From: Bdellovibrio sp.
GTDB lineage: Bacteria > Bdellovibrionota > Bdellovibrionia > Bdellovibrionales > Bdellovibrionaceae
Direction of reading: 5' to 3'
Length of the DNA: 47,099 nucleotides
Assembly (NCBI GenBank): GCA_014376435.1
Contig: JACMRL010000037.1
Coordinates: 1-47,099 of the forward strand
A model generated the notes under the pieces. It did not search any database. It had not been told where the DNA came from and saw only the letters and a list, made by a program, of their open reading frames with translations. A program made the position numbers and the translations under genes. This document shows positions 1-47,099 of the stretch, piece after piece. How positions within the stretch are numbered: position 1 is the first letter of the stretch; the number at the start of each line of letters is the position of its first letter.

Positions 1-659
1 ATCACCAGAAAGCACAAATGCTTCCGCAACGTTTGATGAGTTACCAACGAAAATTCTTCCCGAATTTAATCCTGAGGTTAATTTTGCTGCAAATGCAGTA
101 AAATCTGAAGCCGCTAAGTATCCATTCACCGAAGCCGTCGCACGTGAAATATCAATCGATGGTGAAGTACTTGAGGTACTGACTGTGATCGGATTTCCCG
201 AAGTGCCTGCCGATGTCACCGAACCGACGGTTCCGCCGCCAGATCCTGGTGTGTAGCCCAACGCATTAGTAATATCGTTAGAGTTTAAAACTCCAGCTGC
301 TGTTACGCGACCTTTTAAATCAACCGTTAATTTTGAGAAGGTGCCGGCTCCAACACCTGAGTTTGATAACGATAGTATTCCCGTATTTGAAATCGTGGCA
401 TCACCTGAAATCACAAATGCTTCCGCAAAATTCGAAGAGTTACCAACGAAAATTCTTCCCGAATTTAATCCTGAGGTTAATTTTGCTGCAAATGCAGTAA
501 AATCTGAAGAGGCTAAATATCCATTAACGGAAGCTGTCGCGCGCGTAATATCAATCGATGGAGAAGTACTCGAAGTACTAACCGTGATTGGATTTCCTGA
601 AGTAGCTGCCGAAGTCACTGAACCAACCGTGCCTCCGCCAGATCCTGGTGTGTAACCTA
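1..659 (-). repeat. 399-bp-offset direct repeat inside the fibre gene
   Basis: Positions 1 to about 260 match 400 to about 659 nearly base for base at a constant offset of 399 bp (133 codons). For example ttaccaacgaaaattcttcc occurs in both copies. Similarity falls away after about 260/659. The repeat keeps frame, so it duplicates a protein module (SVTSAxTSGNPITV through VLSGD). A shorter, more diverged module (NAKISDVAFxKIxGKPTTL) is repeated at about 690-780 and 940-1020. Confidence 0.85.
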
Positions 660-1959
660 ACGCTGTTGTTATATCCGACGATATCATCGTAATCGTATAT
701 CCGGCTAGCGTTGTGGGCTTACCGGAAATTTTACTAAATGCTACGTCAGAAATTTTAGCGTTATTAATGACACCGTTATTAACTGTTAGTACACCTAGGT
801 TTGTGATCGTCGCATCGCCAGAAAGTACACGACCTTCTGCAAAATTTGATCCGTTACCTACAAAAATATTTGCCGAAGTTAATGCACTTGTACCGTTTGA
901 TGGCGTGTATCCCAAGGCATTCGTAACATCATTCGAAGTCATAGTAATTGCGTAACCAGAAAGTGTGGTTGGCTTTCCGGTAATTTTATTAAAAGCTACG
1001 TCTGAAATTTTCGCATTATTGACTGCACCCGAAGCAATGACGGGGTTCAAAAGTGTTCCCGTTAGATCACCACTTAAACTTGTAGCAGCTTGGAAGGCTC
1101 CTGTTATTCTTGCATCATTACCTGCGGCAACTGTATTGGTGCCCGTTCCGACGTTTAAGGTCAACGCGGGAGTCGATGTACCGGCCGCTACTGATAAGTA
1201 AGAATTTGTAGAGCTCACCATCGTCACACCGCTTGCTGCGCCGGTGCTGTCAGAAGAAGGGACCCAGTTCGTACCATTAAATTTTAATACTTGCCCTGGT
1301 GCGGCACCACCCGCTAACAAACCCGATGGGTTCATCGAAGTTGCGGCCGCAGCCGTAACACAAGAAAAAGTTCCGGCGATTCGGGTTAATACATCTGATC
1401 CAGTACATGAAGGTATTGCTGTACCCAAAATAAAATCGGCGGCCGTATTAATTCCTAGCTTTTCTGAAGACTCTGCAAACATCGCAAACGGTACGCTGTT
1501 AATATCCATCGGAGGCAAAGTTTGCCAACCGTTACCACTGCCGTCGTTGAACTGCATCACCAGCCGGCGATTATCAATCAAGCTGGGCGAAAAAGTTCCC
1601 GTTGTTTGGCACGTGTAGGTCGGCGTGTTATTATTAAAAGCGTCGTACCATTTCATGGTACCCAAGACCGGATAACTGCGCGCCGCTTTAACCGGATCAC
1701 CGAGCGCAAGTACAGCACTGCCGCCTGAACTTGATAGATCTACATTTGAAAATGTTTCTGAATAAATCACGCACGTTGATAATGGATTCATTAAAGAAAA
1801 CTTAAACTGAACCGAGGTTGCTTCCAGCGGAGTACCGTCGGGCTTGTAGATTTTAGTTTGAAATGAAATGAGCTTCGGTGCAGCTAGCGCAGCAGATACA
1901 GAAAATACGCTCATGAAAACAAGCATGGAAAGAAAAAAGAATTTCTTTAAATAGGTCAT
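1..1959 (-). CDS. Tail-fibre-like repeat protein (MAT-like adhesin), N-terminal part, runs off left edge
   Basis: 653 codons are open from an ATG at 1959-1957 to the window edge; no stop is reached, so the C-terminus is missing. Residues 1-27 form a signal peptide (MTYLKKFFFLSML then a small-residue cleavage site near ALAAP). Next comes a domain of about 150 residues with a YKPDGTPL motif, two Cys and NSVPFAMFAE at its end, then a Cys-bracketed segment (SCTGSDVL...GTFSCVT). The rest is Ser/Thr/Gly-rich beta repeats with NALGYTP, KISGKPTTL, VGNxSNxAE and VLSGDATI motifs, as in phage tail fibres. This order matches what is known of Bdellovibrio mosaic adhesive trimer fibres, which display variable tips for prey binding. 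Family membership is inferred from motifs. A weak AGG lies 4 nt before the ATG. No enzyme motif was seen. Confidence 0.8.
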   Translation of the reverse strand, partial: MTYLKKFFFLSMLVFMSVFSVSAALAAPKLISFQTKIYKPDGTPLEATSVQFKFSLMNPLSTCVIYSETFSNVDLSSSGGSAVLALGDPVKAARSYPVLGTMKWYDAFNNNTPTYTCQTTGTFSPSLIDNRRLVMQFNDGSGNGWQTLPPMDINSVPFAMFAESSEKLGINTAADFILGTAIPSCTGSDVLTRIAGTFSCVTAAAATSMNPSGLLAGGAAPGQVLKFNGTNWVPSSDSTGAASGVTMVSSTNSYLSVAAGTSTPALTLNVGTGTNTVAAGNDARITGAFQAATSLSGDLTGTLLNPVIASGAVNNAKISDVAFNKITGKPTTLSGYAITMTSNDVTNALGYTPSNGTSALTSANIFVGNGSNFAEGRVLSGDATITNLGVLTVNNGVINNAKISDVAFSKISGKPTTLAGYTITMISSDITTALGYTPGSGGGTVGSVTSAATSGNPITVSTSSTSPSIDITRATASVNGYLASSDFTAFAAKLTSGLNSGRIFVGNSSNFAEAFVISGDATISNTGILSLSNSGVGAGTFSKLTVDLKGRVTAAGVLNSNDITNALGYTPGSGGGTVGSVTSAGTSGNPITVSTSSTSPSIDISRATASVNGYLAASDFTAFAAKLTSGLNSGRIFVGNSSNVAEAFVLSGD

Positions 1960-2259
1960 AAAACCTAAACAAATCTGCATAGTTATTTATCGGCTAATTT
2001 GTTGAATTTCTTTACAGACTAAAGTCTAACAATGCTAAAAGTCTCAAAAAGATCCACCTCTAGAAATTTAAAATACTAATCTGATGCGTTCAGAAAGCTT
2101 ATACGGCAATACATGCCCGTGTAGAAAGATCACCCACAACGATTATCGTTTTGCCAGGTGCTCACAAACAGTCTTCAACCGATCCCCGTCTGCGCTCTTC
2201 TCTCATCATTCTTTCGGCGCTTCGGGGGCATCGCCCCATCCTTGAAATCAGAATGGGCC
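1960..2259. other. Intergenic region between fibre gene and RAYT gene
   Basis: No supported gene. It must hold the promoter of the leftward fibre gene, but I see no convincing -35/-10 pair. A short palindrome (agactaaagtct) lies near 2026-2037. A 5-bp GC hairpin with a 3-nt loop (ggggcatcgcccc) lies near 2225-2237, upstream of the RAYT start. An open frame continues upstream of the RAYT ATG to a GTG at 2158, but its sequence has no family resemblance. Confidence 0.5.
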
Positions 2260-2952
2260 ATGAAAAAACCAAAACAACTTTCGCTCTTCCAAAACTCCCG
2301 TGATCTTAAAACTCAAACTAAATTCTTCGGCGGTGCCTTACTCAAAAACCGCCGTAAATCCATCAGACCGCTATCACGAAAAGATTCAATTCACTTTGTA
2401 CTTCGCAGCGAGTGGGCGATGGGTCGCGATAGCTTTTTAGCTAAGAAAAACTATGCAGATATCGATTATATCATCACCCGCTTTGCAAAACAGTTCGGCG
2501 TGCGGATTTACCAGCGAGCGATTAACAGTAATCACATTCACTTGCTTTTAAGAATCACGAACCGCGTGCTTTACCGTGCGTTTATCAAAGCCGTTTCAGG
2601 TAAAATTGCCAGTCACGTGATGGGTCAGCAAAGTTTTAGACTTTTTCTGAAGGCCCGCGGGAATTCATTCGCGGGCGATGGGTCCCACTCTGCGAAAGTG
2701 AAGCGGGAAAGTTTGTCAAAAAGAAAGACCTCACCTGAGATACTGAACAAGAACCGTGGCTTCTGGGAGTTTCGGCCTTTCTCGAGGGTTGTGAATTGGG
2801 GTAAAGATTTTAAAACTTGCGTCAGTTACTTGAAGCAGAATATTTTAGAAGCTTTCGGTTTTGTTAACTATACGTCGAGAAAAAACTTTTACTCTCGCTG
2901 GATTATTGAAACTATTCCGATACTCAGTAATGGACAAAATATCAAGCAATGA
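2260..2952 (+). CDS. REP-associated tyrosine transposase (RAYT, Y1/IS200-like)
   Basis: 230 residues. The HUH motif is clear in NSNHIHLLL, and the flanking pattern (RPLSRKDSIHFVLRSEWAMG, then FWEFRPFSRVV and YLKQNILEAFGF) is that of RAYT Y1 nucleases, which cut single-stranded DNA at REP hairpins. The start ATG at 2260 gives the usual basic opening MKKPKQLSLF; an upstream GTG at 2158 only adds unrelated sequence. About 30 residues (GNSFAGDGSHSAKVKRESLS and following) sit between the HUH domain and the FWEFRPF motif where relatives I know are shorter; this part includes a GC-rich hairpin. It has no inverted-repeat ends of its own, as expected for single-copy RAYTs. Catalytic Tyr not assigned with certainty. 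Confidence 0.85.
   Translation: MKKPKQLSLFQNSRDLKTQTKFFGGALLKNRRKSIRPLSRKDSIHFVLRSEWAMGRDSFLAKKNYADIDYIITRFAKQFGVRIYQRAINSNHIHLLLRITNRVLYRAFIKAVSGKIASHVMGQQSFRLFLKARGNSFAGDGSHSAKVKRESLSKRKTSPEILNKNRGFWEFRPFSRVVNWGKDFKTCVSYLKQNILEAFGFVNYTSRKNFYSRWIIETIPILSNGQNIKQ
2653..2676. repeat. GC-rich hairpin inside the RAYT gene
   Basis: gcccgcg (2653-2659) pairs perfectly with cgcgggc (2670-2676) across a 10-nt loop. A second imperfect inverted repeat follows (cact...agtg, near 2685-2700). The 12-mer gggcgatgggtc occurs here at 2673-2684 and again upstream in the same gene near 2416. REP-like character is a guess; it may be only local coding sequence. Confidence 0.4.
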
Positions 2953-32910: not shown

Positions 32911-34161
32911 CTACACCCCTTGCTGCCGCAACCCTTTAATGCGTCTTTCAATCAAATCAGAAATACGTTTGGCAATTCTTGCTTGAGAGAACTCTGACTC
33001 AATCCGGTCTGCTAAGTTGTCTTTTTTATTTTCTACACGCTTGATCACGGCATTTATGCGTTGATGAAATGTTCCTGGCTTCATTTGTAATTGATTTTCT
33101 AATAGCTTGAACTGCTTTAGTCCGATTTTTGAAAAATCTGTGCGTTGACCAATCGCAAAGGCAAAATCTTTTTTTAAGCTTGGGTAAATGGCCGTAGATA
33201 TCAGGTCGTAAAAAGGTGCTAGTTCGTTTTTTCCATCATGAAATAACAGCGATATATTTTTTGAATGACTATCGTTGTTGCCGATTAATAGGTTAAAACA
33301 AATCCAATCTAAAAAATCTTCCGCATTGGGTAATCGCTTTTTCGCTGCCACTGAATTTAAGATAAGTTCGTAATTTCTCTGAATGCTCGGACCCCCTTTT
33401 GCTTCGTATTTAAATTCGCTCGTTATCCCCTGAGCTTGGCAGAAATCTTGTTGATGAATACGTGAAACGATTCTTTTTTCGCTTGAGCGATCATAGCGTT
33501 CGATAATAAATAGCGGGTGTGGGCCGTCTAGTATCTGACATTTGGGAATTTTAAATCCAACTTCACGCGCAAGCTGCATGCAATAATATTCGTTATAAAC
33601 TGATTCTTTGATTCCTTTACGCTGAATCGGCGTTTTAATAATATGTGTCGTCGCGCCCCCGCCTTGCGGTAAATAAAACCGGCCTTTTTTATAAATAGCG
33701 GGAAACTTATCTTGAGCGCCCGCTAAGGAAAGATAGCCAGGATCCATCGCCGCAATCACATCGGCAACCGGCTTTTTTTTGTTGATCGCCTCATAAATTG
33801 TCGATAGCGGAACTTCAACTAAGCCTTGAGAGCTTTGTCTTACAAAAAAATTTTCGTCTTTGGTAACAACAAATGCGCCGGCGCAATCTTGACCAAAATT
33901 TTCTAAAAATTCGAACGTGCCTTTGATGTGATGATCATTTTCTAAAGTTTTTCTAAGATCTCCTTCCGGTAGTAAATTTTCAAAAAACGACAAGGTTATT
34001 TTATTTTGAAACTTTTTTTGTGTTAAAGGCATTGCAAGACTTAGTGGAAAGCTATTTTTTGAATTCTGCCAACTTTCGGTATATGAAAATGAATACACTA
34101 AATCTGTGTTACGCACTAGTGTTCCTACTTTTTGGTTTTCAAAGTAAACGTACAGATTCAT
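32911..34161 (-). CDS. hipA: HipA-family serine/threonine kinase toxin
   Basis: 416 residues. The N-terminal couple_hipA domain (about 1-110) reads VGTLVRNTDLVYSFSY and FFENLLPEGDLR. The kinase has LAGAQDKFPA (Gly-rich/Ser loop), HIIKTPI (Lys), FIIERYDR, LIGNNDSHSKNISLL with the catalytic Asp, and APFYDLISTAIYP (metal site). All catalytic residues are present, so the toxin looks active. HipA toxins halt growth by phosphorylating glutamyl-tRNA synthetase or other targets. Its ATG overlaps the hipB stop by one base (taatg). It could be a TA pair that aids persistence. Confidence 0.95.
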   Translation of the reverse strand: MNLYVYFENQKVGTLVRNTDLVYSFSYTESWQNSKNSFPLSLAMPLTQKKFQNKITLSFFENLLPEGDLRKTLENDHHIKGTFEFLENFGQDCAGAFVVTKDENFFVRQSSQGLVEVPLSTIYEAINKKKPVADVIAAMDPGYLSLAGAQDKFPAIYKKGRFYLPQGGGATTHIIKTPIQRKGIKESVYNEYYCMQLAREVGFKIPKCQILDGPHPLFIIERYDRSSEKRIVSRIHQQDFCQAQGITSEFKYEAKGGPSIQRNYELILNSVAAKKRLPNAEDFLDWICFNLLIGNNDSHSKNISLLFHDGKNELAPFYDLISTAIYPSLKKDFAFAIGQRTDFSKIGLKQFKLLENQLQMKPGTFHQRINAVIKRVENKKDNLADRIESEFSQARIAKRISDLIERRIKGLRQQGV

Positions 34162-39139: not shown

Positions 39140-40213
39140 TTACTTCGCCGCCTCAACTCGAGGCGCCAATGAGCAAGAATAGCCAGGACGAAGAAAGCTT
39201 TCTTTATCCGTCGAGGCTGGTTTACGAAAACTAACGCCCGTCATATCGGTGGTGAAAGTTTGCAAGCAGTCATCCAACTGTTTGAGCGAAACTAATTTGA
39301 TCTGTTCATTTTCAACCGAGTAGCTGGTGTAGACGTAAGTTAAATCTGACTCACCCATTAGGCGGATTTTGTGATCGCCTTCAGACTCTACTTTGATTCC
39401 CGATTTAAGATCTTTTTCTGAAATCAAACCAAACATTTGAATCACCTGAGCTTGCGTACTTTTTTCTGAGATTTGTTTGAACCAATAATTTAAATGTTTA
39501 TGAAAAGGCTGTTTTGAATCTTCTGATAACTGGTTCATAATATCAGCTAAAACATAATGACCTTTGGTTGTTTTCTCAAAAGACATCTCGTGCGTGAATT
39601 TAAAGATTACTCCACGCTCTGCTAAGTAAGATAAAAATTCGTTCGAGAATTGAAATCTTGGGACTAAGGCGCGCTCGGGCTGCTTTTGTAAAATAGCGGT
39701 GAATTGTTCGATCGTTGGAAAATCAAAATCAGTTTTTACAATTTCGCGGCCGAGATATTCTGCGATTGATCCTTTACAGGGAAGTTTACTTTCTAATTGT
39801 ACTTTGCCACGGCTTTCGATTTTTACGAATTGGATAGAAACCGTTACGGCTCCGTCTAAGTCTTTTTGAATTTGCACTTGTGAAGTGTCGCCGCGTTTAA
39901 TTTCTAAGATATGAAAGCGCGTTAGTAACTCAGGGCGCTTTCTGAATTCACTTAAATACACTGAAAGTTTTTCTGCCCACAAAGGCTCGTCTATTTCGCG
40001 GCATTTTTGATCGATTTCAGTTTTTTCAACTTCACGAATTGTTACATCGGAAATGTGAAATAAAATATTATTTTGCGCCGCCATTCCTAACACTTGTTGA
40101 ATTTCTGAATTTTGATAAACTTGATTCACCGAAGAAGGTAAGCGCACCTGGCTTGAGAAACATCCTGCAAACAAGCACAAAATTGAAATAGAAAATAATA
40201 CACGCATTGCCAT
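39140..40213 (-). CDS. Lipoprotein of unknown function
   Basis: 357 residues. A lipoprotein signal ends in FAGC (Cys18 or so, depending on start). Nothing else is recognised. The sequence is mixed charged and polar, with no membrane helix after the signal and no enzyme motif seen; three or four Cys lie in the mature part (EIDQKCREID, KLPCKGS, DDCLQT, PGYSCSLAP). Two ATGs six bases apart (40213, 40207) could start it; aggatgg before the second makes 40207 possible. Its stop abuts ampG's stop. Confidence 0.8.
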   Translation of the reverse strand: MAMRVLFSISILCLFAGCFSSQVRLPSSVNQVYQNSEIQQVLGMAAQNNILFHISDVTIREVEKTEIDQKCREIDEPLWAEKLSVYLSEFRKRPELLTRFHILEIKRGDTSQVQIQKDLDGAVTVSIQFVKIESRGKVQLESKLPCKGSIAEYLGREIVKTDFDFPTIEQFTAILQKQPERALVPRFQFSNEFLSYLAERGVIFKFTHEMSFEKTTKGHYVLADIMNQLSEDSKQPFHKHLNYWFKQISEKSTQAQVIQMFGLISEKDLKSGIKVESEGDHKIRLMGESDLTYVYTSYSVENEQIKLVSLKQLDDCLQTFTTDMTGVSFRKPASTDKESFLRPGYSCSLAPRVEAAK

Positions 40214-40361: not shown

Positions 40362-41633
40362 GTGAATAATTTTATCGAGTGTCAAATTTTGTGTCGTTTT
40401 AAGCCTGAAAACGTCAGTACGTTTTCTGTAAAAAAATTGTTCATATTTTTACCGTTATTATTTTCGTTAAATTCATTGGCAGCTTCGATCGAAACTTTGC
40501 CCGCTGATATTTATAGTCCGTCTTTTCGTTATGGTCAAATTACCGGACTTGAGCAGCGATATACCGAATCTGGTTCATTAATGCGATTAACTGATTATAA
40601 AGCGATTGAATTTAACGCCCGGACTTTAGCCCAATTAAATTCACAAGCTGAAGCCCTGATCGCTTCGTTAAATCGTTTCGGCGCATTTAACTTAGGAGAC
40701 TCTTTAAACTTAGGAACCTTGGATATTCAATCGAAGCCAGAAATTAAATATATGGCTCCAGTATTAGGCCGCGGAATTACAAAAAATTGGTCAGTGGGAA
40801 TTGGTATTCCGGTTATTCGTTACCAAAATAAAGTCAAACTTTCGCAATCATTTTCAAATATTGATTACTATCGTTCACAATTTTCTGGGCTGTCGGCAGA
40901 TTTAGATCGTGCCCTGAATACGAATATTGGCGAATCGACCCAGCAAGCACTCGAAGCTAAGGGTTACAAAAGATTAGATGATCGTGATCAACAGTTTATC
41001 GGTGATATCCAATTAGCTAGTGTGTTTAAGCTTTATGAGGACGCAAATCAAAGCATCGTACATCAAGCAACCTTAAGCTTACCTACCGGTCCTGCCTACG
41101 ATGCAGATGATTTGTTGGCTTTAAATACCTTCCACAAGACAACTTTGGAAAACACGATTGCGTACGCCCACAACATAGGTACTTTCTGGAAAATGGTTCC
41201 GTATACCACACTCAATATTGCGGTGCCCGATCAAATCGAAGCGCGTGTACCAACAAGCGATTCAGATATGTTACCCGATCAAGATTCAAAGGAGATGGTT
41301 CAGCGCATGGAAGGTACTAGCTTAGAAGTTGGCTTTCAAAATATCATAGCCCTTGGTGACTCATTCCAATTTTCTCTAGATTATAAAGTCGGAGCCAAAA
41401 GTGAAGACCGTTTTACGGGTTCTCGAGGCTTGCGTTATGAATTGTTAGCAAAAAATACTTCAGCTAGTTGGCAAAAAGTATCGGCTGAAGTCATTTACTC
41501 GAGCGTGAAATCTTACCTTTCTAAAAAATCGGCGATTCCAATGAACATCAGCTTAAAGATTTTTGACACCATCGCTGGACGAAATGTTGAAAGACGTATT
41601 GGCCAAGAATTAGCCTTAACACTTTTTTTCTAG
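40362..41633 (+). CDS. Outer-membrane beta-barrel-like protein, unknown
   Basis: 423 residues. The GTG at 40362 is fixed by a perfect aggagg 8-9 nt upstream. The hydrophobic signal (LFIFLPLLFSLNSLAA) starts only at residue 26, so the N-terminal region is unusually long. The mature part alternates short polar turns and strands (ITKNWSVGIGIPVIRY, TTLENTIAYAHNIG, SLEVGFQNIIALGDSFQFSL) and ends in LALTLFF, a terminal Phe as in outer-membrane barrels. About residues 75-110 and 140-190 look helical. No family is recognised. Thirteen nt separate it from the lipoprotein gene. Confidence 0.75.
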   Translation: MNNFIECQILCRFKPENVSTFSVKKLFIFLPLLFSLNSLAASIETLPADIYSPSFRYGQITGLEQRYTESGSLMRLTDYKAIEFNARTLAQLNSQAEALIASLNRFGAFNLGDSLNLGTLDIQSKPEIKYMAPVLGRGITKNWSVGIGIPVIRYQNKVKLSQSFSNIDYYRSQFSGLSADLDRALNTNIGESTQQALEAKGYKRLDDRDQQFIGDIQLASVFKLYEDANQSIVHQATLSLPTGPAYDADDLLALNTFHKTTLENTIAYAHNIGTFWKMVPYTTLNIAVPDQIEARVPTSDSDMLPDQDSKEMVQRMEGTSLEVGFQNIIALGDSFQFSLDYKVGAKSEDRFTGSRGLRYELLAKNTSASWQKVSAEVIYSSVKSYLSKKSAIPMNISLKIFDTIAGRNVERRIGQELALTLFF

Positions 41634-41645
41634 GGGACTGCACTT

Positions 41646-44072
41646 ATGAAATTTATTTTACAGTTATTTCTTATTTTCATTTTTGTAGGTTGCGCCCCAA
41701 AGCTGCAAGAGCCTGCTTACAAAAATACGGCGGTTGATTTGGGGCCAAAAAATAAAGATCGTGATTTGTTAGCAGAAAATGCGAATGCATTTGCAGATTC
41801 TAATTTTACAAAACAGAACTTAACTCAAGCTGAAGATGTTAAAAGCCGCTTGCAACAAACCGAAGCAATGTTTGATTTAGCAAGTATAAATTCAGACCAT
41901 GACTGGTCTTTGAAGGCGAATTCACAATTTAGTGACTTACAAAAAAAACTAAATACAAAAAAAATTAAAGCTGACCAGTCGATTTACATGGATTTAGTCT
42001 ATAAGCAAATAAAACCGCAAGTTGATAACACATTAAATGATGTGGATAACCAGATTTCTGAGAATTCAAACCAAATCATTGAAATGATTCGTGCTCAGAA
42101 AAAAAACTTAAACCAGGCAGCCGGAAAAACACAATTTAAAGAAAAACTGGCAGTCGCCAATACTTTTTTGAATTCTATCACCGCAGAAGTAAGCGCGATG
42201 AATTTACTTCCTGAGTTTAAGCAAATTTTTTTAGAGCAACTAAAAAATGAAAGCAAGCGCTTACTGACCGAAGCTAATAATTTTGATGAAAAACTAACTC
42301 AAAGTAATTCTTTGATTGCTAGTTTGAATGCAATTAGTGAATTCGTGAAGGCTTCAGAAATTGAATTAAGTGCCGAAGACCAAACTAATTTAAGTAAGGG
42401 ACAAAACTTAGCCGCAGTTTTAAATTCGGTCAACAACCCAGAAACGGCTTTGCAGGCGGTCGCGATCGTTTGGTCTTTATTAGATGCCGAACAAAAAATT
42501 GAGTACTTTAAATCCGCAAACGAAGATTTATACAAATTTTTCGTTGATAAAAGTGAATCCGATGTTCAATGCTTAGCCGAAAAAAACTGTGACGGTTTGA
42601 AAACGAAATTAATTTTGAATATGGGCGTTTATCCGGCGATCGAAAAATTTGGCGTTGATAAAATTAGTGCTCTAATTAATCAAAGCGGTAGAGACTACGT
42701 TTTAGCCCGCGTAAATACCGTAGCCGCGGATTCTGTTCCTAAAATTGGTGAAACGGTAACAAGTAAAATTTTAATATCGGTTAAACAGAAAAAAAGTGAG
42801 CTTTCTACGTTAAAAAATAATTTTCGCGACCATCTTTCTGAAGGCTTCGAGGATTTCTTAAAACTAAATAAAATTGCCTCGGTCGAAAATTTTATTTTAG
42901 ATAAAAATGACTCGAATATGGATTTAGAAACGCAAACGCTTTATATTCGTAATAAATTAAAGCAGCTTCCTTATTTAACAGATTCAAGTGATTTAATTAA
43001 AAGTCAGTTTGAACTAATTGAGGGTGCTTTACACTTACCACTTTTTAGCAAAGAGCCCGAGCAAAAATCTAAAACAATTCAAGAAGATCTAGACCAAATT
43101 TTAGTTCATCCGACGGCACGCCAGTACTTGGATTCCACGGCATCAAATAATTCAGAAATTAAACTAAATCAACAGTCTGAAATTCTTTTAACGATGGCTG
43201 ATTACGTCGATCAGTTGGCTGATTGGAAGAATTCAAGCTTTGATAAAAATTTATCGGCTGTGGAAGCCAAAGACATTTTAAAACAACTTAATGCAGATAG
43301 TTCACACCGTCTGTTCTTTGCCAAATATGATTTGCTACCTTTAGTACTATCGGTGGCCAGTCAAACTTTAAAACTAATGCAAGGTAGTGATTCGCTTATT
43401 GTATTAATTGATAATTATGGCGGCTTGTTGCCCGTACAAAGTATTGATAACAGTTCGACGCCGGTGGCTTTAGCGGCCGCTACAGATTTAAAAAATGGAT
43501 TTCGGAAAGAAAATATTAAATCGCGTGACTTGTGTCGCTTCCAGCTTTCTATTTTACAATTTTACCGCGCGACAGAGGCCATTGAAAACACCCAGTCAGA
43601 ATTATTAAAAAAATTAGATGCGGACGGGAATTCATCTCTTAATGATTTGGTTAAAGCTCGCAAAAGTTTGCATCTTTTGATTGTGGCCCTTGGAAATTAT
43701 TTATCTAGTCAGTTAGTACAAAGTAATGGTTTAGTCGCAAAAGAAATGTCTTTAGTTGCCGGCGAATTTTTGAGTAATGATTTTGATTTAGTTGATCAAA
43801 CATTGGCGATCGAGACCTTGGTTAAAACTTATGAAGCTACAAAAATTGATGTTTACCGTTGGACCGCTTTAGATATTTTTTATTCTTTAAATAAAAATAT
43901 GTATTCGTTTCCGAAACGTTTTTATAAGAATAATTCTTCAGATCTTCTAGATAATAACGTTGAAGTGACAACGGCTTTAGTAACTTATAAAAATTTATCA
44001 ACTTTGAAGCCTTATCTGAATAAGAAAAGCCAACTGCAATTAGAAGCTATTTATCAGGCGTGGATTCAGTAA
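41646..44072 (+). CDS. Large helical lipoprotein of unknown function
   Basis: 808 residues. A lipoprotein signal ends in FVGC (Cys16). The rest is Lys/Asn/Gln/Leu-rich and probably almost all helical, with heptad-like stretches at about 100-260 and 360-420. Only four Cys occur in the mature part (VQCLAEKNCDG, DLCRFQ and one other possible). No enzyme motif or known domain was seen. It begins 13 nt after the barrel-like gene and ends 2 nt from the convergent PA14/LamG gene. A periplasmic or surface partner of the barrel is a fair guess. Confidence 0.8.
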   Translation: MKFILQLFLIFIFVGCAPKLQEPAYKNTAVDLGPKNKDRDLLAENANAFADSNFTKQNLTQAEDVKSRLQQTEAMFDLASINSDHDWSLKANSQFSDLQKKLNTKKIKADQSIYMDLVYKQIKPQVDNTLNDVDNQISENSNQIIEMIRAQKKNLNQAAGKTQFKEKLAVANTFLNSITAEVSAMNLLPEFKQIFLEQLKNESKRLLTEANNFDEKLTQSNSLIASLNAISEFVKASEIELSAEDQTNLSKGQNLAAVLNSVNNPETALQAVAIVWSLLDAEQKIEYFKSANEDLYKFFVDKSESDVQCLAEKNCDGLKTKLILNMGVYPAIEKFGVDKISALINQSGRDYVLARVNTVAADSVPKIGETVTSKILISVKQKKSELSTLKNNFRDHLSEGFEDFLKLNKIASVENFILDKNDSNMDLETQTLYIRNKLKQLPYLTDSSDLIKSQFELIEGALHLPLFSKEPEQKSKTIQEDLDQILVHPTARQYLDSTASNNSEIKLNQQSEILLTMADYVDQLADWKNSSFDKNLSAVEAKDILKQLNADSSHRLFFAKYDLLPLVLSVASQTLKLMQGSDSLIVLIDNYGGLLPVQSIDNSSTPVALAAATDLKNGFRKENIKSRDLCRFQLSILQFYRATEAIENTQSELLKKLDADGNSSLNDLVKARKSLHLLIVALGNYLSSQLVQSNGLVAKEMSLVAGEFLSNDFDLVDQTLAIETLVKTYEATKIDVYRWTALDIFYSLNKNMYSFPKRFYKNNSSDLLDNNVEVTTALVTYKNLSTLKPYLNKKSQLQLEAIYQAWIQ

Positions 44073-44074
44073 TC

Positions 44075-45973
44075 TTAAGGCGGGTTAATGACTCGCGTTC
44101 GTTCATATAATGTATTCACTTGTCCGGCGGTCAGAACAACGTTCCATATGCCAATATCGTCAATTTGTCCGGAAAAGAAATTTGTATTCGCTAAATTTCT
44201 TCCAATATAAACAGTTGTTAAGTTGACCGTTGTCGTGGGAGTTGCACCAAAAGTACACGATGAATCTAGTTGTCCGTTAATATAAATTTGCCCGGCTGTT
44301 CCCAATAAAGTCACCGTTACAAAACTAAAAGTCGCCGTAGGGATTGAAACCGATGAGTCACAAAAAGTTCCTATGATATTGTGCCTGATGATTCCGCTTG
44401 GAAGAACTTCTAAACCGTATCCGTTGTTTGCCGTATTGGCTCCCCAATACATAATTGGTAAAGTACTTCCTAGGGCAGAAGGTTTAACCCACGCCGAAAT
44501 GGAACGCGCCGTAGAACCACCCGGAAGAAATGTTGTTGTCTCAGTCGAAGAAACGTAATCGTCCACTCCATCAAAAGAAATTGCTTGCGACCTGTCGGTC
44601 GTGACGTAGGCCATTCCGGTTCCATTTACGTTAGAGGCTACGGCATTCAGTGGCGCGCCTGGTGCACCAAGTCCGCTAATTCCTGTAACCGCTGCGCCAT
44701 TTGCGATGGCTCCTACTGTACCGTTCATTGCATAAGCTCGCACCATATTGGTGTAAGCGGGCACGACAAATTGTCGGAAATCTAAAGCTCGCACTGCTAT
44801 AGAATACAGATAGGGTTGCGTAACTGCCACTGGAGTTCCACACGCACCGGAAACATACTGAAGTCGGGCCACCGCACCTCCCGCATTATTATACATTTCC
44901 ATATAGATTGGATATTTTTGATTAGCAACGAAAGTAAAGCTTCCTGTGTTAGGAGAGGGTCCGTGATCTGTCCAATTATTTATGACCAAAGTATTATTTA
45001 TCCAAACACGAACGCCATCATCTGATATTGTTTGGATACAATAACTTGCCGAAGTCGGCGCAACAATTTGCCCGGTCCAATGTATTCCGTAATTTAACAC
45101 TCCGCCTGCGGGATTTGTTCCCCACAAAAAATCGACGGTGGCATCAATGCGTTGATTAACTAAAGTTGTAAAAGCACCCTCGGGCGATGCACCTGTCTGC
45201 GCGGCAAAATATCTTCCAAACAATCCGTCACCTTGATCAATAAAAACTTGTGCGGCTGCAGCAACTGTAACCGCTACCGTGGCACTAAACCCGCCAAATG
45301 TTGCCGTGATATTAATTGGTCCGCCGTTAGAGACTCCGGTAATAAGACCTTTTGATGACGTATTATTCACTGAAGCAATGGCGGCATTAGCCGAAGACCA
45401 TACGCAGGAACTAGTTAAATCAATACTGCCACCATCTGATGTAGAGCCAATGCATTTTACTTGTTGAGTGTTTCCAATGGGCAAAGTACCAGAAATATAA
45501 TTAAGCGTAAGGCCAGTTACCGTAGAACTATTAACCCGCACGGTAACCGGTCGCCGCGAAATATAAGGACCACCTTGTGCATCAGTGTAATTAATTGTCA
45601 TCGTATCACTGTAAGTAGCGGCACTTGCAGACTGGGCGGTAATCACAACTGTACAACTAGATCCCGCGGATAAAAAAATACCGCATGTACCACCCGAGCC
45701 TGGGTAGGTTCCGCCTTGAAATCCAAACTGAGTTATCGCAAAGTTTGTACCACTTAAATTATTAATAATCGTTGCGCCATTGTTAGTTAACGTTAGCGTT
45801 CTTTGAGCAGCAGCATTGAGTGGTAAGATTCCTAAATTGAAAATAGTTGCATCGGAAATAGTCAGACCAGCTGTCATATTTTTCCAATAAGAAAAAGGCA
45901 CAACAAATTGTGCCTCAGCCTTTTGAACCAAAGAAATATTTAAAATAAAAACAAATAGGCAAAAAAACTTCAT
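44075..45973 (-). CDS. Secreted multidomain adhesin-like protein: ASH-like, Big2, PA14, LamG
   Basis: 632 residues. A signal peptide (to QKAEA, about residue 21) precedes four modules. Residues about 35-145 are ASH/choice-of-anchor-D like (FNLGILPLNAAAQRTLTLTN, GGTCGIFLSAGSSC). About 150-235 are a Big2 Ig-like domain (GLTLNYISGTLPIGNTQQVK, VTVA). About 245-390 are PA14 (GLFGRYFAA, DDGVRVWINNTLVINNW). About 400-630 are LamG/concanavalin-like (ISFDGVDDYVSS, ISAWVKPSA, GQIYINGQLD, GQIDDIGIWN). PA14 and LamG bind sugars or glycoproteins in relatives. The ATG has aggatggt upstream and the fibre gene stops 25 nt before it, so one operon. Confidence 0.88.
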   Translation of the reverse strand: MKFFCLFVFILNISLVQKAEAQFVVPFSYWKNMTAGLTISDATIFNLGILPLNAAAQRTLTLTNNGATIINNLSGTNFAITQFGFQGGTYPGSGGTCGIFLSAGSSCTVVITAQSASAATYSDTMTINYTDAQGGPYISRRPVTVRVNSSTVTGLTLNYISGTLPIGNTQQVKCIGSTSDGGSIDLTSSCVWSSANAAIASVNNTSSKGLITGVSNGGPINITATFGGFSATVAVTVAAAAQVFIDQGDGLFGRYFAAQTGASPEGAFTTLVNQRIDATVDFLWGTNPAGGVLNYGIHWTGQIVAPTSASYCIQTISDDGVRVWINNTLVINNWTDHGPSPNTGSFTFVANQKYPIYMEMYNNAGGAVARLQYVSGACGTPVAVTQPYLYSIAVRALDFRQFVVPAYTNMVRAYAMNGTVGAIANGAAVTGISGLGAPGAPLNAVASNVNGTGMAYVTTDRSQAISFDGVDDYVSSTETTTFLPGGSTARSISAWVKPSALGSTLPIMYWGANTANNGYGLEVLPSGIIRHNIIGTFCDSSVSIPTATFSFVTVTLLGTAGQIYINGQLDSSCTFGATPTTTVNLTTVYIGRNLANTNFFSGQIDDIGIWNVVLTAGQVNTLYERTRVINPP

Positions 45974-45998: not shown

Positions 45999-47099
45999 TT
46001 AGTAGCCTGTAATCCAAGTGACCAGACAATTCGCTCCATCGCTCATCAGTGTATAAACAGTTTTGTTTAGTCCACCATTTACGCGGTTACCATTGGCCGG
46101 TACAAATCCCGGAGTACCCGAGGCGCCTAAAAATGTAACGCCGGCATCACTGTAACAAACAAACGGAATCGTCGTTGTACCACTATTACTTACCACTAAC
46201 ATATAAGCCGCACCCGGTTTCATATTATTGATTTGAACCGATGTTGCCGTCGCTGGTGGTGTCCATCTCATTACGTTACCTGTATTTGCATTCCAAACTA
46301 ATGTGTTACTAACGATATCTGTTTGTACATTCGACCAAGCTTGACCAGATACTTGAACTCCACCCGCCGTATCAACCGTTAAGCGTGTAATGTTGGCCGT
46401 TTTGATCGTTAAAGTATTACTGTCGTTGGTACCGATACTCGCCGCCGCACCAAAACTATTTCCACCCGGAATGTAAGCCGCTAATGGTAATGCTGCCGTA
46501 ATATCAGACGAGGCTAAAGCTCTGAATGTAGGAGTTGCCGCTGCACCCGTAGCCGGACCAGAAAACACCGTGCCCGCAGTTTGCGTAGCAAAGTTAGCAG
46601 ATACGATACTTCCGCACGTCCAACCTGTTGTCACATTCCAACTTAAAATCTGGTTCGCCGTACATGCTAACGGAGCTAACGTCGCACCCGTCGTAGAGTC
46701 AGTTGCGATCAGACGACTAACCCCTGGATTTGTAAAAAGTTTCGGAGTTGTAATTGAACCATTTGTGATTGTTGCCACACCCGCATTTGTAATTGAAACA
46801 TCACCACTCATTGTTACTGCTGTCGCCACATTCGATACATTACCAACAAACATACTTCCGTTCGCTAATACATTCGATGCCGGAGTGTAAGTTAAAGCCG
46901 TCGTAATATCAGCTGAGTTCAATAAGGCTGACGCTGTTACGCGACCTTTTGTGTCGAACGTAATCTTCGATCCAGTATTTGCAACTACGATCGGAGTTAA
47001 TGATAAAATGCCTGCATTCGTAATCGACGCATCACCTGAAAGTACTTGGTCTTGTGCAACGTTGGAAACGTTACCCACAAAGATATTTGCAGAAGTTAA
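45999..47099 (-). CDS. Tail-fibre-like repeat protein (MAT-like), C-terminal part, runs in from right edge
   Basis: 366 residues to the stop; the frame is open to the edge (LTSANIFVGN at the start), so the N-terminus is missing. Two VGNVSNVA modules (VLSGDASI, TMSGDVSI) and a Cys module (LACTANQILSWN then WTCG) match the left-edge fibre. A 120-residue C-terminal domain (ISTN-like turn, TLTIKTANITRLTVD, then QAWSNVQTDIVSNTLVWN through CLVTWITGY) is a different kind of module and may be the tip. Two Cys near the end (FVCYSD, ANCLV). In MAT fibres such tips bind prey surface. An ORF start at 47078 (GTG) seen as a start would be false. Confidence 0.85.
   Translation of the reverse strand, partial: LTSANIFVGNVSNVAQDQVLSGDASITNAGILSLTPIVVANTGSKITFDTKGRVTASALLNSADITTALTYTPASNVLANGSMFVGNVSNVATAVTMSGDVSITNAGVATITNGSITTPKLFTNPGVSRLIATDSTTGATLAPLACTANQILSWNVTTGWTCGSIVSANFATQTAGTVFSGPATGAAATPTFRALASSDITAALPLAAYIPGGNSFGAAASIGTNDSNTLTIKTANITRLTVDTAGGVQVSGQAWSNVQTDIVSNTLVWNANTGNVMRWTPPATATSVQINNMKPGAAYMLVVSNSGTTTIPFVCYSDAGVTFLGASGTPGFVPANGNRVNGGLNKTVYTLMSDGANCLVTWITGY

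Follow-up and report, generated by a model that had tools for sequence, protein, structure and literature searches.

The DNA analysed here, called the window, is a stretch of 47,099 nucleotides that makes up the whole of contig C28 in a fragmented, 90.75% complete Bdellovibrio sp. assembly of 42 contigs. At its left end, a minus-strand reading frame begins with an ATG at 1980 and is still open at base 1 of the contig (1..1980), encoding the N-terminal 660 codons of a fibre of the mosaic adhesive trimer (MAT) family. The sequence-only reading had given this gene the span 1..1959; the fibre reading frame on the minus strand stands, but the ATG at 1959 is the second in-frame ATG, and the start at 1980 is the likelier one because a similar extra MxIxLG start is present in four paralogues in the alignment and because paralogue C42 carries no methionine at the position of the second ATG. 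The protein has a signal-peptide-like start as read by eye (KKFFFLSMLVFMSVFSVSAALA followed by AP; 1882..1980), after which comes the MAT N-terminal domain (1423..1917), matched by the NCBIfam model NF053851.1 'Bdello_MAT_N' over residues 22-186 (E 8.4e-43; 146 bits where the cut-off is 60, and 141.8 bits in the genome-wide search) and modelled by single-chain structure prediction as a beta-rich fold (pLDDT 87.7, pTM 0.69). This profile search, the check that had been proposed for the suspected MAT domain, thus scored far above the cut-off, and NF053851.1 matched none of 14 control genomes. The Cys-bracketed segment CTGSDVLTRIAGTFSC follows at residues 192-207 (1360..1407). In an alignment of 80 N-domains, two cysteines are invariant.

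The remainder of the frame (1..1359) is shaft, in which the repeats reported earlier, VGNxSNxAE and NALGYTP, were recovered as three VGN.SN.A motifs (residues 374, 512 and 645) and three ALGYTP motifs (residues 355, 440 and 573); when the protein was shuffled 10,000 times, at least one VGN.SN.A appeared in 3 cases. Positions 1-160 recur at 400-559 with 91% identity, yet no tandem array was called by Tandem Repeats Finder in 1-1980, which points to shaft repeats of a degenerate or interrupted kind. By sequence, the window protein finds no relative in the PDB at E<=0.001. Taken from its sequence, the left-end gene encodes the beginning of a long fibre of the MAT family, predicted to be surface-displayed and likely to serve prey recognition. 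A Y1_Tnp (IS200-like) protein (2158-2952, plus strand; PF01797, E 1.9e-6) lies divergent from it; the genome has seven such places, and three besides this one are at contig ends.

The tip of this fibre had been expected outside the window, and comparison with the other contigs points the same way: on the coding strand, the window ends in 88 bases (1..88) that are identical to the first 88 bases of contig C15 and lie in frame with it. This stretch occurs at 100% only in C15, besides the window itself, in a search of the whole genome, and shares at most 13 nt with 18 other fibre stretches; the codon phase of the two contigs also agrees, (1980+4795-88)/3 giving 2,229 amino acids. C15 thus very likely holds the remainder of the gene, the whole fibre then having about 2,229 residues. 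On this inferred join, the last 401 residues of C15 would contain the tip, which is likely of a non-S74 type, those residues matching no Pfam family at E<=0.05, the autotransporter anchor included. Within a few bases 3' of the C15 frame lies a DUF5122 beta-propeller gene (L033:4800-8000, plus strand), and the same order of tip and propeller is seen in three of the seven other loci read that carry a C15-type tip, in two other genera, the two genes lying about 12, 61 and 840 nt apart. In a comparison over 66 genomes of the family, the C15 tip is most similar (62% and 59%) to tips in two genomes of another genus, the best match within its own genus reaching 43-44%. The window N-domain, on the other hand, is 72-91% identical to the copies in its own genome, 65% to its best aligned counterpart within the genus (G007) and at most 47% to those of G013. 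This mismatch between the kinship of N-domain and tip fits a tip swap, subject to the C15 join, and from it we infer that the window gene itself may have undergone one. A tblastn search with tip queries found no tip remnant behind C15, the likely 3' end of the gene.

The right end of the window carries the C-terminal 366 amino acids of a second MAT fibre (45999..47099, minus strand), also open at the contig end. It is likely the same gene as an N-terminal part on contig C2, to which it was assigned because of best matches and synteny with G013, and it looks like a syntenic core gene, so that two MAT classes meet in the window: the syntenic core type at the right and, at the left, one with an N-domain closest to copies in the same genome. 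The second fibre ends in a predicted phage-fibre-like beta domain (46002..46409; model pLDDT 92.1), and a profile of this tip with the last turn of the shaft matches the solved structure of Bd2133 (8ond, E 2.3e-6). Directly 3' of it is a gene (44075..45973, minus strand) whose product looks secreted and matches the Pfam domains PA14 and Laminin_G_3; it was not found beside the tip in the six related loci read. Three genes in 40362-45973 separate the core fibre from the gene at 39140-40213, and no homologue of these three was detected in the interval from the core fibre to the counterpart of the 39140-40213 gene in G007, G003, G009 or G013. A HipA-like kinase with both HipA domains lies at 32911-34161 on the minus strand.

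The resemblance to phage fibres raises the question of whether the window gene could be a prophage tail-fibre gene, or a trimeric autotransporter of the YadA type, rather than a MAT. The family found here does share with phage tail fibres and tailspikes the predicted fold of the right-end tip and its S74, Collar and glycine-rich tip types; the window protein has a weak match to a PHROG tail-fibre family (52 residues, E 8.5e-4), and one tip homologue carries the name 'trimeric autotransporter adhesin' in its source. Unlike those phage proteins, however, the fibres are chromosomal and secreted-looking and carry the MAT N-domain, which scores far over its cut-off; the 38 other listed reading frames were read by eye as chromosomal genes with no phage structural genes among them, and the last 401 residues of C15, the likely end of the fibre, match no autotransporter anchor in Pfam. 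A phage or autotransporter origin is therefore scarcely credible.

The wider genome contains further members of the family. NF053851 matches 13 places in it, of which those on contigs C16 and C2 (54563), overlapping by 32 nt, were counted as a single split gene, leaving 12 N-domains which, set against 13 fibre 3' ends, indicate about 13 MAT genes. In a tree from which two truncated own N-domains were left out and G007 was absent, the eight own N-domains other than that of C2 form one clade with 100/100 support, which is compatible with both recent expansion and gene conversion. Across the class, 106 of 143 genomes match NF053851, 103 of them over the cut-off, and the 14 same-genus genomes, including this one, have 0 to 27 N-domain places each, the two members assembled as single contigs having 1 and 18. 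By coordinates, S74 domains fall in MAT frames in 12/12 cases in G018, 10/11 in G013 and 1/2 in the genome studied here. The source organism is predicted to be a relative of the Pseudobdellovibrio predatory bacteria; Ca. Bdellovibrio qaytius and P. exovorus JSS have both been described as epibiotic (PMC11656739).

Stretches resembling fibre tips also occur behind the fibre genes. With 55 tip sequences as queries, tblastn (E<=1e-5) was run on up to 5 kb, in some cases less, behind 55 fibre 3' ends, 13 from the genome itself and 42 from G013, G018 and G035, the last contributing the 7 of its 12 loci that ended in a stop. Matches were obtained behind 13 of the 55. Seven of these, of which five are in G013, one is in G018 and one lies behind the genome's own C41a, fall within adjacent intact MAT genes and were rejected as remnants. 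The others are tip remnants behind six of the 13 own 3' ends (C3, C5, C12a, C24, C41b and C39), none with a match to the NF053851 N-domain, and none of the 42 ends in G013, G018 and G035 has a remnant in the same search. In G004, where 24 loci were found (27 N-domain places) and 15 of 19 stop-ended genes were followed by more than 100 nt of readable sequence, the coordinates of the single match placed it within the following intact MAT gene and it was dropped, leaving remnants behind 0/15. The totals are thus 6/13 in the genome studied against 0/57 in four relatives; statistics on 6/13 versus 0/42 or 0/57 are descriptive only, since the genes of one genome are non-independent. Eight of 46 upstream regions had matches; their coordinates put these in adjacent MAT loci, and in the case of C12 the C12a remnant is included.

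The remnants differ in state and content. The C5 fibre, which itself ends in a glycine-rich tip (PF21722), is followed by two S74-type coil ends (E 1.3e-8 and 2.7e-8) and a Collar tip (PF07484, E 4.7e-17), three layered remnants in all, so that roughly 1 kb holds three different tip ends, in a stretch with stops in every frame. The C3 remnant is interrupted by just one stop in its best frame and that of C24 is an open frame of 190 amino acids with an S74 domain, so that decay has not gone as far in every remnant, while those of C41b (58 residues) and C39 (31 residues; E 4.5e-6, the weakest) are slight. A Peptidase_G2 match of the C12 remnant was below its cut-off and was discarded. Stretches are also shared between loci: the C3 remnant has 298 nt in common with the intact C41b fibre at 96.6%, and the C12 and C24 remnants have 330 nt in common at 95.5%, extending past the stop codons, their 301-nt flank occurring at full length at those two places only. 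Separately, the roughly 1.67 kb behind the C5 (L089) and C24 (L043/L091) fibres are 71% identical, which suggests duplicated flanking genes.

Two explanations would account for such stretches with no exchange of tips. They could be artefacts of a metagenome-like assembly broken in fibre repeats, and 16 of the 84 contig ends do lie inside MAT genes; this is improbable, however, as the C3 and C5 remnants are internal to contigs of 171 and 188 kb and the stops in every frame at C5 make that stretch unlike a chimera of intact reads. The main rival holds that the window gene is an ordinary MAT fibre and that the remnants are the 3' ends of tandem MAT copies that decayed once deletion had removed their 5' parts. 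Tandem copies certainly exist, intact ones being found in G013, G018, G004 and on the genome's own contigs C12 and C41, but the absence of an N-domain match from all six remnants, the three different ends packed into about 1 kb at C5 and the 0/57 in four relatives that have tandem genes all speak against decay of whole copies, which is judged unlikely, if less so than an artefact. The replacement of tips by recombination in the shaft, with the former end left behind, appears preferable, and the remnants suggest that old tips were likely displaced as new ones arrived. As they are seen in one genome of five, such displacement may be local or rare.

On balance, the reading we consider the more probable is that the left gene is the start of a MAT fibre, predicted to be surface-displayed and likely prey-recognising, and that the MAT tips of this genome likely change by recombination. 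Attachment to the predator would be the task of the conserved N-domain, the repetitive shaft would form the trimer and extend the fibre outwards, and the non-S74 tip, for which C15 is the very likely location, would bind a structure on the prey surface; trimer formation, surface display and prey binding of the window fibre are putative. Incoming tips would recombine within the common shaft repeats, and the displaced tip would be left downstream with no N-domain and then decay, recombination being the putative cause of the remnants. More tentatively, and at somewhat less than an even chance, the tips may be pushed downstream as cassettes devoid of an N-domain and recopied into other fibres in the manner of Rhs, the leftovers forming a fossil record of prey recognition. 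The sequence-only reading had also proposed the window fibre as a probable host-range determinant; such a role is kept conditional here because deletions of single MAT genes in B. bacteriovorus gave small or no predation defects (PMC10769870).

MAT fibres have been described as prey-recognition proteins of predatory bacteria (PMC10769870), and those of B. bacteriovorus (NF053851) share with the genes found here a signal-peptide-like start, a conserved beta-rich N-domain, a long repeated shaft, exchangeable tips and membership of a multigene family. The present genes belong to another genus, with N-domains 72-91% alike within the genome, and differ in the remnants behind 6/13 of their 3' ends, which go unmentioned in the main text of that paper. 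MAT tips have been exchanged in evolution, and swapping has been proposed from structures (PMC10769870); the main text of the same paper does not contain the word 'pseudogene' and uses 'recombination' in its methods only. In the literature searched, which mostly excluded subscription papers and bioRxiv preprints, no report of displaced tips in MATs was found. A further parallel is offered by the orphan rhs modules of enterobacteria, in which C-terminal fragments of other variants lie downstream of the full-length gene (PMC3967940): both have stranded variant ends downstream and common stretches able to recombine. Unlike Rhs, the tips here are, where matched, fibre or adhesion domains, and no toxin or immunity gene was identified.

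Putatively displaced MAT tips behind fibre genes thus form an unexpected, genome-wide pattern that resembles the orphan ends of Rhs, and this genome would hold a DNA trace of how the swapping of MAT tips may happen. If displacement is true, the history of prey might be legible in the discarded tips, and the spread of 0 to 27 MAT places per genome could allow this genus to show whether tips follow prey range.
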